A DNA stretch of 64,000 nucleotides from Fulvivirga ligni (GTDB lineage: Bacteria; Bacteroidota; Bacteroidia; Cytophagales; Cyclobacteriaceae): contig NZ_CP089979.1 in assembly GCF_021389935.1 (NCBI RefSeq), positions 5,313,001 to 5,377,000 on the forward strand, read 5' to 3'. Both the position numbers and the translations under genes were made by a program. Below, piece by piece: positions 27,457 through 44,794 of the stretch; the stretch's first letter is position 1, and the number at the start of each line of letters is the position of its first letter. The notes beneath the pieces were generated by a model. The model saw only the letters and a list, made by a program, of their open reading frames with translations, did no database searches and was not told the DNA's origin.

Positions 27457-27480
27457 TAGCATCCATTCCGATGGATGCTA
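27457..27480 (+). promoter_or_regulatory. Perfect hairpin that contains the start codon of the sensor kinase
   Basis: Arms TAGCATCCAT and ATGGATGCTA (ten perfect pairs) with loop TCCG. The second arm starts with the ATG at 27471. It could block translation initiation, or be a weak terminator (the following bases are TTTCACC). Confidence 0.6.
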
Positions 27481-30400
27481 TTTCACCAATTCAAATACAG
27501 CAATCAAAGAGAGCAATTCTGCTTTATATTATATTTACACTTAGCTTTAGCGTAAATTTATATTCACAGGGTGATTTCTTAATAGATGATTTCAACCAAA
27601 CAATTTATAATGCATCTCCTTCCAACTGGGGTTGTACTCAAACTGGCCTTGGAACATTATTTTTCGCCAATTATGATGGGGTGACCACTTATGATGGAAA
27701 CACATGGTCATTAATGACCATAAATAATAATTCAGCTTGCTTATCAATAGCTAGTACTTCATCAAACAAAATCTATGTAGGGTTACAAAATGATTTTGGT
27801 TTTTTATCACCTAATGAAAGGGGAGCTCTTTCTTTTCACTCATTGAAGGATCAAATTAATAGCAAGATTAATTTGAGTCCATTCTATAAAATCTTCACCA
27901 TACTTGACACTGCGTACTTTTATTCTGACAACTTAATTGTAAAATATTCGAATGGTAATTTAATACATTGGATTTCTGAAAATGGCAGTTTTAGTGATCT
28001 TTTTGAGGTCAACAATAAAGTGTATGCCCTATTAAATGATGGCATATATTCTATTAAAGCAAAAAACATGAATAAGCTTCCCAATTCAGAAAAATTAGTT
28101 CAGCATAAGATAATTTTCTTATCATCCAAAGGCAACAAACTTCTAGTTGGAACCCATGAATCCGGATTTTTTGAATATGACAAGGGAAACATAAAGAAAA
28201 TATCAGCTTCACATCTAGAAAAAATTAAAAGACCTGTCTATACAACAGCATATTCCAATAACCTTCACCTTCCATTTGAATATGCATTGGGCACCTTAGG
28301 CAATGGAATTGTTTTCATCGATAAGGACTTTAATTACGTTTCTACACTTAACGAAAAAAATGGTCTATCAAGCTCTGTCATTAAAGGTTTAACCATAGAT
28401 AACAATTACAATCTATGGTCCACAATGCAAGAAGGGGTAGCCAGAATAGAAACCTCATCACCATTTAAAAAAATTCTTCCTCTAGATGATTTATCGTGCA
28501 CTATATTTAGTATAATTAATTACCAAAATAGAATATATATAGGTACCAGCATTGGACTCTACTTCCTAGAGAACAACCAAATTCACAAAATCTCAGACCT
28601 TAATACAGCAATTTGGGATTTGATAACTTATAAAGATCAACTGATCATAGGAACAGATGACGGGTTATATTTCATGCAAAATGAAGCGCTAACAGAAAGA
28701 TCAGATTTTATAAAAGTCACCAAACTTTATATAAGCAAGAACAAAAAATTAATTATTGGTCATGCCAAAGGAGTCAGTTTGTTGGACATAGATCAACCTA
28801 CCTTAGGAGAAAAAACCTTTAATATTCCACCCTCTAGGTACAATTCTATAATGGAAGATGATTTTGGCAATCTATGGATCAGTTCAAAATTTGATGGAAT
28901 ATATCAAATTAAAAACCCATTGGATTCCACATATGAAATTCAAAAATACAATGAAGCAGATGGATTGCCTGATACAAATGAGATTCAAATAATACAGCTG
29001 AATAAAAAGCAATATTTCACTAGCTCCAACGGATTTTACCAATTCAACAATAATACAACAACGTTTTTAAAAGATTCTTCAATTGTCGATTACGGTTATG
29101 ATATAAATAATGTCACAGTAACAACAACCAATGACCTTATTCTGTCAACAAAAAACGATGAAAATAGAACATTTTTAATACAGTTAAAGAATACTAAATC
29201 AGGATATAGAACTGTATCCATTCCGTATAGACGGCTTCCTAATATGTCCATAGACGCTATCTATCAAGACGACAGCCTAATATGGATCGCCGGTAGTGCC
29301 GGGTTATTTTACTTCAATGAAAACATAAAAAAAGATTACCAGATTCCTTATAATACTCTGATAAGGCAAGTTTCGACGAATGACTCTACAATTTTCTACG
29401 GAAGTTATTTTAGCTCAAAGGATACGGCACAAGTAAAAGCCATATTGAAAGATCAACCAGATAATTTCAAGCCGACTCTCACTTATTCAGAAAACAACAT
29501 CACCTTTCAATACAGCGCTGCCTTCTATGAAGTTCCTGAAAACAACCAGTATAGCTATTATCTGGAAAACAATGACAAGGGGTGGTCTAAGTGGAGTACA
29601 GAGCACAAAAAAGAATACAGCAACTTATCTCCGGGCACATATACATTCCATGTTAAGTCGAAAAACATATATGAATTTGAAGGTAGCATTGCCACCTATG
29701 AATTCACCATCCTTCCACCATGGTACAGGACATGGTATGCATATATAGGCTATGTTTTATTGGCTGGTTTATTGATCTGGGGAATGATATTGGCTTATAC
29801 ATTCCGAGTACGGATGCAGCGTCAAAAGCTTAAGCTCGTAGTGGCTGATCGAACGTTTGAGGTTTTAAGTCAGAAAAAAGAAATCGAAAAGCAGAAAAGC
29901 CTGCTGGAGACCCAATTTGAACAAATCAAAGAACAGCGAGACAATATACAAAGTAAAAATCTGGAGCTTAGTATGGCTCAGAGAGAAACTTCCAAAGCTA
30001 ATTTAGCCCTTCAGGAACTTAATAATAATTTAGAAAAAGAGGTAGAAGATCGAACCAGCAGGATAAAAAGTATGCTTGAAGAGCTCCAAAAAACCAATAA
30101 AGAACTTGATCATTTCATATACCGTGCCTCTCATGATTTAAAGGGGCCGATAAGTAGAATAAGTGGTTTAACTTCCCTCGCAAAACTTGAAGTGGCTGAC
30201 TCTAACAGCAAAAACTATATAGATCTCATAGACTTCACGGCCAACAATATGAAGTCTACACTTACCAAACTCACTCAGGTGCATGACTTGATGAGTACTG
30301 AGTTAAATATTGAAGAAGTAGACTTTGCCTCGCTCATCAGCTCTATCCGGACGTCCATTAAATATCTGGAAAAGGATGCAGGGGTTATCAAATACAAGTT

Positions 30401-30785
30401 TGATTTTGACAAGGACTTAACAATCAAGACTGATAGTTATCGATTGAGTATCATAATTGCAAATCTCATTGAAAATGCCATTATTTATAGAAGATCTTCT
30501 CAGGATGAGCATTCTATTGACATCCGAGCTTACAAAGAAGCCGAGAGTCTGAAAATTATGGTATCTGACTCTGGTATTGGCTTGAAAGAAGATCAGTTTG
30601 ACAAAATATTTGATATGTTCGTTAAGGTTAATGACAATAACAACGGTAGCGGACTAGGTCTTTACCTCACCAAGCTAGCTCTAAATAGATTAAATGGCTC
30701 AATCAGTGTTCAAAGCAAGATAAACACTTTCACAACTTTCACAGTAACGTTACCATTAGTTCCTCCTAGCGAATCCCATCAATAA
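27471..30785 (+). CDS. Sensor histidine kinase with periplasmic beta-propeller and Y_Y_Y domain
   Basis: 1104 residues. Order: signal sequence with hydrophobic stretch about 14-33, two-component propeller repeats (Reg_prop, e.g. GTSIGLYFLENNQIHKISDL) to about 640, Y_Y_Y domain about 667-749 (YSYYLENNDKGWSKWS, LSPGTYTFHVKSKN), membrane helix about 752-774, a long coiled coil about 790-875, HisKA with phospho-acceptor His888 (RASHDLKGPISR), and HATPase with N-box NLIENAIIYR, G1 DSGIGLKE and G2 GSGLGLYL near 1060. There is no receiver or AraC domain, so it is not a hybrid regulator and needs a response regulator encoded elsewhere. It overlaps the convergent tyrA gene by 20 nt. Its signal may be the neighbouring peptide (inference). 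Confidence 0.88.
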   Translation: MDAISPIQIQQSKRAILLYIIFTLSFSVNLYSQGDFLIDDFNQTIYNASPSNWGCTQTGLGTLFFANYDGVTTYDGNTWSLMTINNNSACLSIASTSSNKIYVGLQNDFGFLSPNERGALSFHSLKDQINSKINLSPFYKIFTILDTAYFYSDNLIVKYSNGNLIHWISENGSFSDLFEVNNKVYALLNDGIYSIKAKNMNKLPNSEKLVQHKIIFLSSKGNKLLVGTHESGFFEYDKGNIKKISASHLEKIKRPVYTTAYSNNLHLPFEYALGTLGNGIVFIDKDFNYVSTLNEKNGLSSSVIKGLTIDNNYNLWSTMQEGVARIETSSPFKKILPLDDLSCTIFSIINYQNRIYIGTSIGLYFLENNQIHKISDLNTAIWDLITYKDQLIIGTDDGLYFMQNEALTERSDFIKVTKLYISKNKKLIIGHAKGVSLLDIDQPTLGEKTFNIPPSRYNSIMEDDFGNLWISSKFDGIYQIKNPLDSTYEIQKYNEADGLPDTNEIQIIQLNKKQYFTSSNGFYQFNNNTTTFLKDSSIVDYGYDINNVTVTTTNDLILSTKNDENRTFLIQLKNTKSGYRTVSIPYRRLPNMSIDAIYQDDSLIWIAGSAGLFYFNENIKKDYQIPYNTLIRQVSTNDSTIFYGSYFSSKDTAQVKAILKDQPDNFKPTLTYSENNITFQYSAAFYEVPENNQYSYYLENNDKGWSKWSTEHKKEYSNLSPGTYTFHVKSKNIYEFEGSIATYEFTILPPWYRTWYAYIGYVLLAGLLIWGMILAYTFRVRMQRQKLKLVVADRTFEVLSQKKEIEKQKSLLETQFEQIKEQRDNIQSKNLELSMAQRETSKANLALQELNNNLEKEVEDRTSRIKSMLEELQKTNKELDHFIYRASHDLKGPISRISGLTSLAKLEVADSNSKNYIDLIDFTANNMKSTLTKLTQVHDLMSTELNIEEVDFASLISSIRTSIKYLEKDAGVIKYKFDFDKDLTIKTDSYRLSIIIANLIENAIIYRRSSQDEHSIDIRAYKEAESLKIMVSDSGIGLKEDQFDKIFDMFVKVNDNNNGSGLGLYLTKLALNRLNGSISVQSKINTFTTFTVTLPLVPPSESHQ

Positions 30786-31617
30786 TAGGTCTTATCTTAT
30801 TAGCCTCTTTCATAAATTCATTCATTTCTTCAGCGTTCTTCTTATCCAGCAACTCTTTAAAAGAACTTAGCTGCTTTATATATGTCTCCAAGGCTCCGGA
30901 TAAGTTATTCTGATTTTGAACAAAAATTGGCGACCACATCTCCGGTGAGCTTTTGGCCAACCTTACCGTAGAGGCAAAGCCGGAGCCAGCCATGGCAAAA
31001 ATGTGCTTTTCGTCCTTCTCCTTTTCAAGTACAGTAGTACTAAGCGCAAAGGAAGAAATATGACTCAAATGACTTACGTAGGCAATATGTAAATCATGAT
31101 CTTTAGGCGTCATACTAACCACTTTCATGGCAAGATTCTTACAGATTTCATGAAATAGGTTGAGTTGAACCTCTCCACTTCTCTCCTGCTCGCAGAGGAT
31201 CATGATTTTATCTTCAAACAAGGTGGAAAACGCAGCTTGTGGACCAGAATACTCGGTCCCTGCCATTGGGTGGGCAGCAACAAAACACTTTCTATTTTTA
31301 TGCTCAGCCACGGATAAGCAGACAGCTTCTTTAGTGGAGCCAAAATCAATGATAAGCTGATCATCTTTAACTAAATCAAGCACTTGTGGTAATAGCTTGG
31401 TCAATGCATCTACCGGGATGGCCAGGATGACCACATCCACCTGATTTACTGCTTCTTCAAGACTTTCATATCGATCTATTATGCCTAATTCTTTAGCCTT
31501 TTCAAGGTTATCAATGTTTTTATCAACACCAACTACCTCCACATTTAATCGTCTTCTTTTTACTGCTAGTGCAAAAGAACCACCGATAAGACCTACTCCT
31601 ACTAATGCTATTTTCAT
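30766..31617 (-). CDS. tyrA: Prephenate dehydrogenase
   Basis: Converts prephenate to 4-hydroxyphenylpyruvate with NAD(P). 283 residues: Rossmann motif GVGLIGGSFALAVK at residue 7, dinucleotide-binding Asp (VVGVDKN), HPMAGTEYSGP near residue 117, and the helical dimer domain (HLSHISSFAL). No chorismate mutase or ACT domain is attached. It follows the aminotransferase gene by 3 nt as the last gene of the phhA operon. Its 3' end overlaps the sensor kinase gene by 20 nt on the other strand. Confidence 0.92.
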   Translation of the reverse strand: MKIALVGVGLIGGSFALAVKRRRLNVEVVGVDKNIDNLEKAKELGIIDRYESLEEAVNQVDVVILAIPVDALTKLLPQVLDLVKDDQLIIDFGSTKEAVCLSVAEHKNRKCFVAAHPMAGTEYSGPQAAFSTLFEDKIMILCEQERSGEVQLNLFHEICKNLAMKVVSMTPKDHDLHIAYVSHLSHISSFALSTTVLEKEKDEKHIFAMAGSGFASTVRLAKSSPEMWSPIFVQNQNNLSGALETYIKQLSSFKELLDKKNAEEMNEFMKEANKIRPIIDGIR

Positions 31618-31620
31618 ATT

Positions 31621-32769
31621 TTAAAGTCGTGCTAAAGCTTCATTGTACACCTCCACGTCACTGCAGAGAGAAATTCTGACATATTCTTTACCCTTATCGC
31701 CAAATATAAATCCTGGCGTAATGAAAATATGCTTTTCATGCAGAAGCCTTTCTACCAGGTCCTCCGCACTTTTTTCACTTTCAGATATCTTTGCCCAGAC
31801 AAACATGCCCTGCTGGCTTTTGCTATAGGTACAATTAAGTTTATCCATAATCTCCTGCACCTTCAATCTTCTTTCTTTGTAGATTGAATTTACTGAATCG
31901 AACCAATCATCACCCAGTTTTAAAGCCTCAACTGCGGCTAACATGAGTGGCTTGAACATACCCGAATCAACGTTGCTCTTTATTTTAATAATGGCCTGAA
32001 TATAATCACTAGCACCAGCTACCCAGCCAATTCGCCAGCCAGCCATATTGAATGATTTACTCATAGAGTTGAGCTCAATAGCAACCTCCTTAGCCCCTGG
32101 AATGGAAAAGATGCTAGTGGGTTTACCAGAAGGTAGGATAAGACTATAAGGATTATCATGACAAAGCAATACTTTCTTCTCCGCAGCCAGCTTAACAAAA
32201 CGTGCTAGCACCTCATTACTGGCTGGCTGCCCAGTAGGCATATGCGGATAATTGAGCCATAATAATTTGACTTTCGAATAATCTAGTTGATCCAAAAACT
32301 GCCAATCGGGCTCCCAGCTATCTTCTTTTATAGGAAAGCGGATCACCTCTGCGCCACACATTTCGGCTACTGATCCGTAAGCGGGGTAGCAAAGCTCTGG
32401 AACCAGCACCTGATCTCCTGGATTTAGAAACGCAAGTGAGATATGAGTAATACCCTCTTTGGAGCCAATCAGTGGCAATATTTCATTGGCAGGGTTAAGC
32501 TCAACAGAAAAAATCCGCTGAAGCCATTCGCTGATGGCTTGCCGTAACTCCGGCAAGCCTTGGTATGATTGATACCCATGATTACCATCTTTAAAGATTT
32601 CTTCTGAAGCTTTCTTTAAAACAGATTGTGCCGGAGCTAAGTCAGGGCTACCTATGGCCAGGTTAAGAACCTTCTTGCCTTCGGATTGCATTTGTCGCAC
32701 CTGAGCCAGCTTTTGAGAAAAGTAATATTCTTTTACCTGTCCCAGCCTATCAGCGGTAGAAATAATCAT
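31621..32769 (-). CDS. PLP-dependent aminotransferase, class I/II, likely aromatic
   Basis: 382 residues, fold type I. The PLP lysine lies in ELNSMSKSFNMAGWRIGW near residue 240, with the Arg of that motif, an Asp in LLCHDNPYS and the substrate arginine in EYVRISLC near the end. Placed between phhA (9 nt) and tyrA (3 nt), the obvious job is transamination of 4-hydroxyphenylpyruvate to tyrosine (inference from context). Sequence alone cannot exclude other substrates such as LL-diaminopimelate or aspartate. Confidence 0.85.
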   Translation of the reverse strand: MIISTADRLGQVKEYYFSQKLAQVRQMQSEGKKVLNLAIGSPDLAPAQSVLKKASEEIFKDGNHGYQSYQGLPELRQAISEWLQRIFSVELNPANEILPLIGSKEGITHISLAFLNPGDQVLVPELCYPAYGSVAEMCGAEVIRFPIKEDSWEPDWQFLDQLDYSKVKLLWLNYPHMPTGQPASNEVLARFVKLAAEKKVLLCHDNPYSLILPSGKPTSIFSIPGAKEVAIELNSMSKSFNMAGWRIGWVAGASDYIQAIIKIKSNVDSGMFKPLMLAAVEALKLGDDWFDSVNSIYKERRLKVQEIMDKLNCTYSKSQQGMFVWAKISESEKSAEDLVERLLHEKHIFITPGFIFGDKGKEYVRISLCSDVEVYNEALARL

Positions 32770-32778
32770 GGGTATTTA

Positions 32779-33555
32779 TTATTTAAGGGCTTTTAGCTTT
32801 TCGTTTAATTTGCTTACTACCTCATCAATAGAATGGTACAACTGATCGTAAGAATCTATGATGAAGTATTTTTCCTGAAAAGTATCTTTTCTGTATGGAG
32901 TATCCAAAATTTGGTCAACATTGTAAGCAAAATGTTGCGGTTCATCACTTAGAGAAAACTTGGTTTCACCAGCTGAACTTAAGATTCCGGCACCATATAT
33001 TCTTAGGCCAGCCTCTTCTCTGATCAGACCAAACTCTACTGTGAACCAGTAAATTCTTGAAAGCAATTCTATAGCAACAGGGTCGCCAGCGTGCTCAGCT
33101 CCTATTTTGCTTAGAGCCTGAAGATAATCTACAAAAGCCTGATTAGTAAGCAATGGCACATGAGCAAATACATCATGAAACATATCTGGCTCTTCCAGGT
33201 AATCTAACTCTTCCATAGTTCTTAACCAGGTAGTAGCAGGAAACTTCTTGTTAGACATAAGCTCAAAAAACAACTTATCATCCACAATGCCCTCTACAGC
33301 TACCAATTCCCAACCCGTAGCTTCTCTTAAGATCACATTGGTTTCTTCGAAATTTGGAATTTGCTGGTTAGTAAAATTCACTATGTCAAGTCCTTTCAAA
33401 AACTCTACTGTAGCAGCTTTTGGTAAGTTTACAATCTGACGGTCATAAAGAATCTGCCATACTTGCTGATCCTCAGCGGTATACTGATCATATACCTGCT
33501 GCATGTCTTTCAACGTAGGGATAACTCTTTGCTCAGATTTTGTAATTGCTTCCAT
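32779..33555 (-). CDS. phhA: Phenylalanine 4-monooxygenase
   Basis: Pterin- and iron-dependent hydroxylation of phenylalanine to tyrosine. 258 residues, catalytic domain only, as usual in bacteria. The facial iron triad is His127 and His132 in MFHDVFAHVPLL and Glu174 in WFTVEFGLI. First gene of phhA-aminotransferase-tyrA, so here the enzyme appears to supply tyrosine rather than only break down phenylalanine. The operon is preceded by a Tyr-rich leader peptide and attenuator whose terminator ends 22 nt before this start. Confidence 0.93.
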   Translation of the reverse strand: MEAITKSEQRVIPTLKDMQQVYDQYTAEDQQVWQILYDRQIVNLPKAATVEFLKGLDIVNFTNQQIPNFEETNVILREATGWELVAVEGIVDDKLFFELMSNKKFPATTWLRTMEELDYLEEPDMFHDVFAHVPLLTNQAFVDYLQALSKIGAEHAGDPVAIELLSRIYWFTVEFGLIREEAGLRIYGAGILSSAGETKFSLSDEPQHFAYNVDQILDTPYRKDTFQEKYFIIDSYDQLYHSIDEVVSKLNEKLKALK

Positions 33556-33576
33556 TGTTTTAAAATTAGTTAAAAA

Positions 33577-33610
33577 TAAAAAAGCCTGGTTCTCTTTCGG
33601 AACCAGGCTT
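33577..33610 (-). terminator. Attenuator terminator of the tyrosine operon
   Basis: Arms AAGCCTGGTTC and GAACCAGGCTT (11 perfect pairs), 7-nt loop, then TTTTTTATTTTT on the minus strand. It stands between the Tyr leader peptide and phhA. Its upstream arm plus loop (TTCCGAAA on the RNA strand, 33602-33595) is complementary to leader positions 33668-33661, so an antiterminator can form instead. Confidence 0.88.
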
Positions 33611-33640
33611 GGTATATTCAGTTATTTAATGCTTAGTGTG

Positions 33641-33718
33641 TCATGAACATACAACTCCCATTCCGAAACTCATCATTCGGTAATAGTAGTAGTAATAATA
33701 GTTGTTCATGGTTTTCAT
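33641..33718 (-). CDS. Tyrosine operon leader peptide (seven consecutive Tyr codons)
   Basis: 25-codon ORF, too short for most gene finders. Reading: MKTMNN, then Tyr7-Tyr13 (TAT TAT TAC TAC TAC TAT TAC), then RMMSFGMGVVCS and TGA. The Tyr run is the stall site. Directly after it an RNA stem CCGAA / UUCGG (33680-33676 with 33667-33663) can form, and its second arm can instead pair with the terminator's first arm. The Met at codon 4 (33709) could also be the start. Placement between a promoter and a strong terminator before phhA is that of a ribosome-mediated attenuator that senses charged tRNA-Tyr. Confidence 0.9.
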   Translation of the reverse strand: MKTMNNYYYYYYYRMMSFGMGVVCS

Positions 33719-33725
33719 ATGGCCG

Positions 33726-33756
33726 TAAAAGTAATATTAATTTTCAAATTACCAAA
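33726..33756 (-). promoter_or_regulatory. Predicted promoter of the tyrosine leader and operon
   Basis: Minus strand: TTTG at 33756-33753, a 19-nt spacer, TACTTTTA at 33733-33726 (one mismatch to TANNTTTG). The leader ATG starts only 8 nt after the -7 element, so the mRNA would have almost no 5' UTR. Confidence 0.6.
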
Positions 33757-33772
33757 CAGAAAATTTATTTAC

Positions 33773-34783
33773 TTAAAAGCTCTCTCTAAGCTCAAACGTC
33801 TTACGCAGCTTTTTAATTAGCTTTTCAGACTCTCTGAAGCTTAAAGTTTGCTGACCATCAGACCATGCCTCTTCTGGTACTTCATGCGTTTCGTAAATTA
33901 CACCGTCGGCTCCGGCCATTACACAAGCTAAAGCCACTGGCTCTACATGATCTCTAATACCAATACCGTGAGAAGGATCCGCGATAACAGGCAGGTGAGA
34001 CTTCTCTTTCAGAATAGCTATGGCGTTGATATCCATGGTATTTCTACTGGCCCTCTCGTAGGTTCTGATTCCTCTTTCGCAAAGCATAAGGTTCTCATTA
34101 CCAGCTGAAAACACATATTCCGCAGAACCCAATAACTCTTCAATAGTTCCTGAGATACCTCTCTTAATTAACACGGGCTTATCCACTTTACCCAACTCAT
34201 CTAATAAGTTAAAGTTCTGTGTGTTTCTGGCGCCCACCTGATAGATATCTACATAGTCATACATCTCCTCTATTTGAGACACCTGCATTACTTCGGTGAT
34301 GATCTTTATACCAGCTTCTCTAGCCAGTTTGTACCAGGTTTTTAAACCATCATTACCCAAACCACGGAAAGAATATGGTGAGCTTCTCGGCTTATAAACA
34401 CCACCACGCATAATTTTAATATTATTCTCTTTTAGGTGAGCAATGGTTTTTTCTATCTGTTCTTCTCCTTCTATAGAACAAGGACCCGCCATTAGTGCCA
34501 TTCCTCCTTCTTCGATTGTTACGCCATCACCCAGGTCAATTACCGTGGGCTTTACTTTCCACTTTCTTGAAACCAACATGTTAGCGTCAGAAACGATGTG
34601 GATATCAGAAATACCTTTCATATGGCCAATCTCACGGATATCAAAATCCTTCTTTCCGATACCAATGATGTATTCGCCTTTTTGCGTTTTTACTTCTGTA
34701 GTCTTGTATTTTAAAGCCTCTACTTTATCTATTATGCTTTGCTTGTTACCTTCTGAGAGGCCTTTTTCTAATTGGATAATCAT
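33773..34783 (-). CDS. aroF: 3-deoxy-7-phosphoheptulonate (DAHP) synthase, type I-beta
   Basis: Entry enzyme of the shikimate pathway. 336 residues: an N-terminal ferredoxin-like regulatory domain (residues about 1-70) and the TIM barrel with MAGPCSIEGEEQ, IMRGGVYKPRSSPYSFRG, LIKRG and IADPSHGIG. No chorismate mutase domain is fused. It follows trpA by 3 nt and so belongs to the trp operon and its Trp attenuator. No terminator is visible between this gene and the tyrosine leader 54 nt downstream, so some read-through into the second unit is possible. Confidence 0.93.
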   Translation of the reverse strand: MIIQLEKGLSEGNKQSIIDKVEALKYKTTEVKTQKGEYIIGIGKKDFDIREIGHMKGISDIHIVSDANMLVSRKWKVKPTVIDLGDGVTIEEGGMALMAGPCSIEGEEQIEKTIAHLKENNIKIMRGGVYKPRSSPYSFRGLGNDGLKTWYKLAREAGIKIITEVMQVSQIEEMYDYVDIYQVGARNTQNFNLLDELGKVDKPVLIKRGISGTIEELLGSAEYVFSAGNENLMLCERGIRTYERASRNTMDINAIAILKEKSHLPVIADPSHGIGIRDHVEPVALACVMAGADGVIYETHEVPEEAWSDGQQTLSFRESEKLIKKLRKTFELRESF

Positions 34784-44625: not shown

Positions 44626-44633
44626 TACATTTG
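44626..44633 (+). promoter_or_regulatory. -7 promoter element of the SRP RNA gene
   Basis: TACATTTG, a perfect TANNTTTG match, a few bases before the 5' end of the predicted RNA. Confidence 0.6.
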
Positions 44634-44637
44634 CAGT

Positions 44638-44729
44638 GGCAAATCAGTACGACCAGCTCCTGCTGAATTCCCCCAGGACCGGAAGGTAGCAAGGGTAGGC
44701 GGTTGTAGCGGTGCGATACTTGATTTGCC
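44638..44729 (+). ncRNA. ffs: Signal recognition particle RNA (small bacterial 4.5S type)
   Basis: About 92 nt hairpin RNA. The ends GGCAAATCA and TGATTTGCC pair perfectly. The apical SRP domain is clear: CCCCCAGGACCGGAAGGTAG near 44670-44688 with the conserved CCGGAAGG tetraloop region, followed by CAAGGGT for the asymmetric internal loop. A T-run (44730-44736) after the closing stem provides termination. It binds Ffh for co-translational targeting. Exact ends are estimates from the pairing. Confidence 0.9.
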
Positions 44730-44794
44730 TTTTTTATTTCCTCATTACCGCGTAAGTTTACAATCAACTTAATACTTCATACAAACTTATCCTT

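Follow-up and report, generated by a model that had tools for sequence, protein, structure and literature searches.

What is the role of a 25-codon open reading frame with seven consecutive Tyr codons that lies directly ahead of phhA in Fulvivirga ligni? A sequence-only reading of the window (the whole stretch of 64,000 nucleotides that was analysed) had taken it for the leader peptide of a tyrosine-sensing attenuator. The analysis described here makes it highly likely that the element is a ribosome-mediated transcription attenuator which senses charged tRNA-Tyr and controls phhA, an aminotransferase gene and tyrA, and the gene order given in that reading was right. Upstream of the leader are found trpE-G-D-C-F-B-A (the best match of trpE, TIGR00564, is below its cut-off, and trpG scores above the cut-off of TIGR00566) and a DAHP synthase gene; the attenuator is therefore internal to an aromatic cluster. 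The features are collected in Table 1.

Table 1. Positions in the window of the leader, its regulatory elements, the surrounding genes and further features.
Feature	Position	Strand	Remarks
-33 element TTTG of Bacteroidetes-type promoter	33753..33756	(-)	from the sequence; consensus in the available text of PMC7366714
-7 element TACTTTTA	33726..33733	(-)	one mismatch to TAnnTTTG; separated from TTTG by 19 nt and from the first ATG by 7 nt
Leader ORF MKTMNNYYYYYYYRMMSFGMGVVCS	33641..33718	(-)	25 codons and a stop codon; Met1 at 33718, with Met4 at 33709 as alternative start; counterparts in relatives
Tyr run, codons 7-13	33680..33700	(-)	regulatory codons; region 1, which serves as 5' arm of the protector hairpin
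Region 2, TTTCGGAA / UUUCGGAA	33661..33668	(-)	partner is region 1 (protector) or region 3 (antiterminator)
Region 3, TTCCGAAA / UUCCGAAA	33595..33602	(-)	within terminator 5' arm and loop; antiterminator partner
Intrinsic terminator (regions 3:4)	33582..33610	(-)	11 pairs, 6 of them G-C; T-rich tail 33581-33572
phhA, phenylalanine 4-monooxygenase	32779..33555	(-)	first gene past the attenuator; TIGR01267 274.0 bits, cut-off 264.75
Class I aminotransferase, probably aromatic	31621..32769	(-)	best NCBIfam matches are LL-diaminopimelate aminotransferase models; matches shown are below cut-offs
tyrA, prephenate dehydrogenase	30766..31617	(-)	NF006307 370.8 bits, cut-off 295
DAHP synthase gene (aroF)	33773-34783	(-)	upstream neighbour of the leader
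Candidate trp attenuator before trpE	41553-41387	(-)	leader MTTTFTYNAWWWHFSQKER, terminator
1104-aa ORF, sensor histidine kinase-like by eye	27471-30785	(+)	overlaps the tyrA 3' end by 20 nt on the opposite strand
Small SRP RNA	44630-44734	(+)	RF04183, 81 bits

The elements named in the sequence-only reading were recovered at the locus. The reading frame with Tyr7-Tyr13 is present base for base on the minus strand, and an intrinsic terminator, described as an 11-bp stem with a T-run, lies between the leader and phhA. The leader segment and the terminator segment said to be complementary (regions 2 and 3) indeed form an exact 8-nt complement, which gives an antiterminator that excludes the terminator. 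The stem reported just past the Tyr run (CCGAA/TTCGG) was also found; it belongs to a more extended hairpin in which the Tyr run itself provides the 5' arm. Folding of the RNA from the leader to the terminator gave -42.5 kcal/mol as compared to a shuffle mean of -23.1 kcal/mol (z -6.0), with none of 200 shuffles as stable. In folds of 54 leaders from which the terminator was left out, the run (Tyr or Tyr/His) usually made up part of the 5' arm of a hairpin with region 2 on its 3' side, a pattern that was judged by eye and not counted. Region 2 therefore has two candidate partners, the run region and the 5' arm of the terminator.

The promoter-like sequence noticed upstream of the leader was borne out as one of the Bacteroidetes type, with TTTG, a 19-nt spacer and a -7 box with one mismatch to the consensus (available text of PMC7366714 and PMC9723704). 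A sigma-70 promoter was rejected as a candidate, since a sigma-70 scan found none at the leader and the Bacteroidetes consensus fits instead. Of the 54 leaders, 30 have an exact TAnnTTTG box in the 45 nt that precede the counted ATG (shuffles: mean 1.9, maximum 9). In 23 of these 30 it sits 5-8 nt ahead of that ATG, and in four beyond the 23 (L002, L006, L083 and L092) it sits 5-7 nt ahead of an upstream in-frame ATG. The Algoriphagus-type leaders show no well-placed exact -7 box. Because the -7 box spans positions -12 to -5 (PMC9723704, as far as its available text goes), transcripts from leaders with such a box would begin some 1-4 nt ahead of the ATG. The leader transcript, with a start site deduced from the position of the box, is thus probably nearly leaderless. 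Such transcripts appear to be rare in the phylum: the available texts give 5.5% leaderless mRNAs for Flavobacterium psychrophilum (PMC9723704) and 5' UTRs shorter than 10 nt in ca. 3.7% of cases for B. thetaiotaomicron (PMC7366714).

The Tyr run by itself is rare. The longest run of Tyr codons elsewhere in the window is three, and in 60 dinucleotide shuffles of the window the longest runs were three (46 shuffles), four (12) or five (2). Six successive TAY codons occur at two places in the 6.5-Mb genome, the Tyr leader and a TATTAT repeat. This rarity is not decisive, because a control pattern of the six codons read backward likewise has two matches in the genome.

More weight is carried by conservation at phhA. 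The loci were taken from the best 80 of 587 confirmed stretches from named genome records and from 58 further relatives (38 with a match, 30 loci), and the sample therefore leans to near relatives of the window's PhhA. After recognised duplicates and two loci with 2 nt upstream were dropped, 101 upstream regions were scored. By a strict rule (a short ORF with a stretch of eight codons of which four or more are Tyr, then a terminator) 37/101 have a leader and terminator, and by a broad rule (Tyr plus His at least five, with at least one Tyr) 53/101; random control windows from the same loci gave 0/689 by either rule. The leader is therefore not a product of chance. Forty-seven of the 101 phhA genes pass neither rule, and five of these do carry a leader ORF (L007, L031, L035, L051 and L067). 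A short ORF with a codon run for an amino acid of the operon, here Tyr7 before phhA and tyrA, is thus conserved.

A covariance model built from 32 leaders gave matches with E <= 0.01 in 122 of the 291 genomes of the order. Among the 30 best loci of the order, 19 precede phhA, 6 precede hisH without phhA and 5 precede a DAHP-synthase-like gene (named by eye; the near-identical L199 was matched by tblastn). A class-wide search gave matches at E <= 1e-4 in 27/295 genomes; seven of the 19 class loci inspected are phhA loci outside the order, six of them with a clear short ORF that has three or four Tyr codons in eight. In other Bacteroidia the Tyr model also matched, in a shifted frame, Thr/Ile-rich leaders (e.g. 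MTTNNTIIITIITTGINLGGR; L186, L187, L191 and L200) before a gene that by eye is aspartokinase-like. Distant phhA relatives (41-42% identity) occur on four viral contigs (L244-L247).

Since there is a real terminator between aroF and phhA, it might be held that this is the ordinary terminator of the trp-aroF transcript and that the Tyr ORF is incidental. Promoter-like boxes lie upstream of the terminator, however, and Tyr runs and antiterminators are kept across genera. The leader is also present where aroF is not beside phhA, for example in L007, L012, L029 and L031, where none of aroF, the aminotransferase gene, tyrA or trpAB was found alongside. We regard an incidental ORF as very unlikely.

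The check named in the sequence-only reading, conserved Tyr runs with covarying stems in related genomes, was carried out, and the proposal passed it. Two alignments were used, A1 (32 of the 39 non-Algoriphagus leaders, picked for alignability) and A2 (15 Algoriphagus-type leaders). In A1, the terminator has 92.6% of its cells paired and both-side changes in 8/11 pairs. The A1 antiterminator is paired in 72.1% of cells, a figure that scores as broken those genera which use a shifted antiterminator register. It has 14 cells with both-side changes as compared to 6.8 in shuffles (0/500 as high) and 6-12 in slid registers; counted as pairs with both-side changes (5), it is not above shuffles (4.0; 159/500). 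The protector hairpin (1:2) is present and partly covarying: 68.0% of A1 cells are paired, with 41 both-side cells versus 26.3 in shuffles, and its 11 pairs with both-side changes were reached by 207/500 shuffles. In A2 the antiterminator has a different sequence (GGAAUAGG with CCUAUUCC) and is 100% paired but mostly invariant, so that it hardly varies in the covariation count (108/500 shuffles); the A2 protector is 76.9% paired. The antiterminator is thus kept by covariation in A1, and in the Algoriphagus set it is fully paired but nearly invariant. Antiterminator duplexes with their own partners have a mean energy of -14.5 kcal/mol, as compared to -11.3 kcal/mol with swapped partners, and for each terminator arm a median of 6.5 of 53 foreign zones pair better than its own. 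Tested against shuffles, the antiterminator reaches p <= 0.05 in 38/54 leaders and is not better in 16/54.

The peptide could also be thought to matter as such, as a small protein that works in trans. The 15 aligned Algoriphagus-type leaders share the start [MV][NS]PTPRT, but apart from the run the peptide differs greatly from genus to genus, whereas the RNA pairing and the type of codon are kept. This makes a trans-acting product extremely unlikely. In A1 the codon column 46-48 is Tyr in 31/32 leaders, and within the run, compared for 27 of the 32 A1 leaders, there are 427 synonymous and 451 nonsynonymous differing pairs; these codon changes give no sign of selection on the leader peptide as such. 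The longer motif [NS]PTPRT[YF][VI]HHS is seen in L046, L048, L049, L054, L056, L057, L059, L060, L063, L070, L072, L074, L077, L080 and L081. RNA pairing across the hairpin may account for part of its conservation.

To model attenuation, a ribosome was placed codon by codon on transcripts of the 54 leaders that end before the terminator 3' arm. The mean antiterminator pairing reached 0.87 when the ribosome stood on the run, as compared to 0.22 when it stood at the stop codon and 0.34 for ribosome-free RNA. Pairing was higher on the run than in free RNA in 50/54 leaders and higher than at the stop codon in 54/54, contrasts that are partly a matter of geometry because region 2 is defined by its best match. 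With swapped arms the difference was modest, with 12.1 expected pairs for own arms and 10.5 for foreign arms (own higher in 49/54). For the leader in the window, pairing is 0.93 when the ribosome sits on the run, 0.24 when it has reached the stop codon and 0.87 when no ribosome is present. The model thus favours the antiterminator in the absence of a ribosome, and the protector of this leader is therefore weak; termination would depend on a translating ribosome.

According to the proposed mechanism, transcription would begin no more than a few bases from the start codon of the leader. When Tyr-tRNA is ample, the ribosome would translate past all seven Tyr codons and arrive at the stop codon, region 2 would be either masked or bound to region 1, and the terminator would form. 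When Tyr-tRNA is scarce, we infer that the ribosome stalls on the Tyr run and covers region 1, which would leave region 2 to pair with region 3, and the genes would be transcribed. The Tyr7 leader would thus very probably act as a tyrosine gauge that permits reading of the tyrosine-making genes at low tyrosine. The attenuator interpretation of the sequence-only reading is in this way supported by conserved leaders, covariation and a codon identity that tracks the pathway; the response to charged tRNA-Tyr is still one that we infer.

T-boxes bind tRNA directly and have no leader peptide. Sensing of tRNA-Tyr by such an element, or by a protein that binds the leader, is the least probable of the alternatives weighed here. 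No T-box was found at gathering score in the window, nor among the six sub-threshold Rfam matches with E up to 5 in 33500-33850, which include Thr_leader (18.6 bits, gathering 55) and Trp_leader (16.1 bits, gathering 41). The element is moreover centred on a run of Tyr codons in an ORF. In its favour, tyrosine genes of other bacteria are regulated by T-boxes, the form of RNA-level control that the available text of PMC1262725 describes for them. The Tyr leader would resemble tyrosine T-boxes in the dependence of control on Tyr-tRNA (PMC1262725, available text) and differs from them in that they bind tRNA directly and in having no Rfam T-box match.

The leader codon run tracks the operon content in relatives. 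Where phhA occurs without his genes the leaders are Tyr leaders, whereas operons of the type phhA-hisH-hisA-hisF have leaders with Tyr and His. In seven His-mixed loci (L009, L010, L024, L026, L031, L062 and L072) the gene after phhA is hisH with a TIGR01855 score above cut-off. The three of these loci that were tested further (L009, L062 and L072) have hisA and hisF next, and L009 also has hisIE; in the remaining loci hisH was found by tblastn. A set of 57 leaders was compared, from which L079 and L096 (no leader) and L027 (downstream sequence too short) were left out, and to which L007, L035, L051 and L067 (terminator missed or misplaced by the scan) were added by hand. At least two His codons in the densest eight were found in 39/41 leaders with hisH next and in 0/16 without. 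With 16 further loci, which reach ca. 490-800 nt past phhA (73 rows; nine duplicates and L192 left out), the counts are 42/46 and 0/27. The hisH-linked exceptions are L026 and L091 with one His, and L125/L126 with none, in which phhA lies ca. 310 nt from the leader. Within the loci named Marivirga, those that lack hisH (L029, L032 and L034) show a single His; of those with hisH, L035 has two, L062 three and L026 one.

Raw Fisher p-values for His versus hisH are 2.6e-12 (57 rows) and 4.2e-16 (73 rows), but these overstate the evidence because the trait changed few times: on the PhhA tree hisH requires at least 5 (57 rows) or 7 (73 rows) changes. Independent pairs number 3 and 2, respectively, on supported branches and 5 and 7 on the best tree. 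The His trait goes in the same direction as hisH in 2.8 and 1.6 pairs on average and never in the opposite one, and a sign test on these pairs cannot reach 0.05. Independent support is thus limited, and all of it points one way.

The excess of His prompted another idea, that the leader responds to slow decoding of NAY codons in general rather than to tyrosine. Among the codons that replace Tyr in the run, those for His are far more frequent than any others (the run definition favours His), and queuosine is found in the tRNAs for Tyr, Asn, Asp and His (available text of PMC4425180). This idea was set back when hisH was found behind phhA, since leaders with at least two His codons are confined to loci with hisH behind phhA (42/46 vs 0/27), a pattern for which no queuosine is needed. 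A general sensor of NAY decoding is, like the trans-acting peptide, extremely unlikely.

The relation between codon run and operon, which agrees with the tyrosine-sensing attenuator, extends to other leaders. Those of hisH without phhA (7 loci) have His in the run and no more than one Tyr. At hisG loci, an upstream ORF with at least four His codons in eight occurs in 20/30, a count of ORFs alone with no control set; the window's own genome has an H6 leader MNLSVNKYHHHHHHFNIDLMHGRYMF before hisG (L210, G000:C1:5144900-5145700), a weak match to the Tyr model. A Phe/Tyr leader (e.g. MNNTFTIYFSYFFFYLQKKGWRYM) occurs in 5/5 same-genus genomes without a close phhA (L205-L209). In each of the five, the operon behind it contains an aminotransferase gene, tyrA and a DAHP-synthase-like gene; the first gene is prephenate-dehydratase-like (pheA-like), family-tested in L205 only and there below cut-off. 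The single prephenate dehydratase gene of the window's genome is located elsewhere, and at its locus a search for a Phe/Tyr leader gave just two unconvincing Phe/Tyr stretches. The trp cluster in the window has its own WWW leader and terminator before trpE, so that two attenuators would stand in series within one aromatic cluster. In the trp leader, a box TACATTTG lies 8 nt ahead of the ATG, and GAACGGCG/CGCTGTTC form a possible antiterminator. A wider proposal, to which we give about an even chance, is that in Bacteroidia one nearly leaderless attenuator design was re-coded as operons were rearranged, with the same type of hairpin scaffold: Tyr for phhA, Phe and Tyr for pheA-AT-tyrA, His for his genes, and Tyr and His for phhA-hisHAF. 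The last would be a two-input sensor that opens the operon when one or the other of two amino acids with unrelated biosynthesis runs short.

Enterobacterial attenuators, hisL included, combine a codon run with a mutually exclusive terminator and antiterminator. The Bacteroid-trp RNA (RF01692), which precedes trp genes, has no match at gathering score in the window. The trpL and pheL leader-peptide attenuators are described in the available text of PMC11802643. Like trpL, pheL and hisL, the Tyr leader has a run of regulatory codons and a mutually exclusive terminator and antiterminator; unlike these, it uses Tyr codons, has a phenylalanine hydroxylase as its target and a Bacteroidetes promoter, and is probably transcribed nearly leaderless. 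The aroR leader of Corynebacterium glutamicum is likewise an aromatic leader with a Tyr codon (Phe-Tyr-Phe), located before a DAHP synthase operon, but it responds to Phe limitation and is unaffected by the availability of Tyr (PMC11802643, available text). In the Bacteroidetes, the Bacteroid-trp RNA is a candidate cis-regulatory RNA (PMC2864571) and clues of leader-peptide attenuation were reported before amino-acid operons of F. psychrophilum (PMC9723704). These candidates resemble the Tyr leader as cis-regulation or leader-peptide attenuation in this phylum, and differ from it in that the available texts name neither tyrosine nor phhA. According to a 2010 paper (PMC2965389), the demonstrated leader-peptide systems known to its authors came from Proteobacteria and Actinobacteria alone, until its own case from Firmicutes was added. 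We do not claim the Tyr leader as the first attenuator of the phylum. The open-access literature matches listed, judged by title or opening of the abstract, contain no Tyr-dedicated leader peptide or phhA attenuator, and a comparative study of 2010 by Lopatovskaya and colleagues could contain some of these predictions. The novelty would lie in the dedication to Tyr, the probably leaderless transcript and a codon run that changes with operon content.

A Tyr-dedicated leader that is conserved within the Cytophagales and at phhA in further Bacteroidia would fill a gap beside the T-boxes. The match between codon run and operon suggests that the purpose of an operon can be read from its leader, and it points to a biosynthetic, not catabolic, role of phhA in these bacteria. 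The leaders form a natural series for studying how the specificity of a sensor changes codon by codon.
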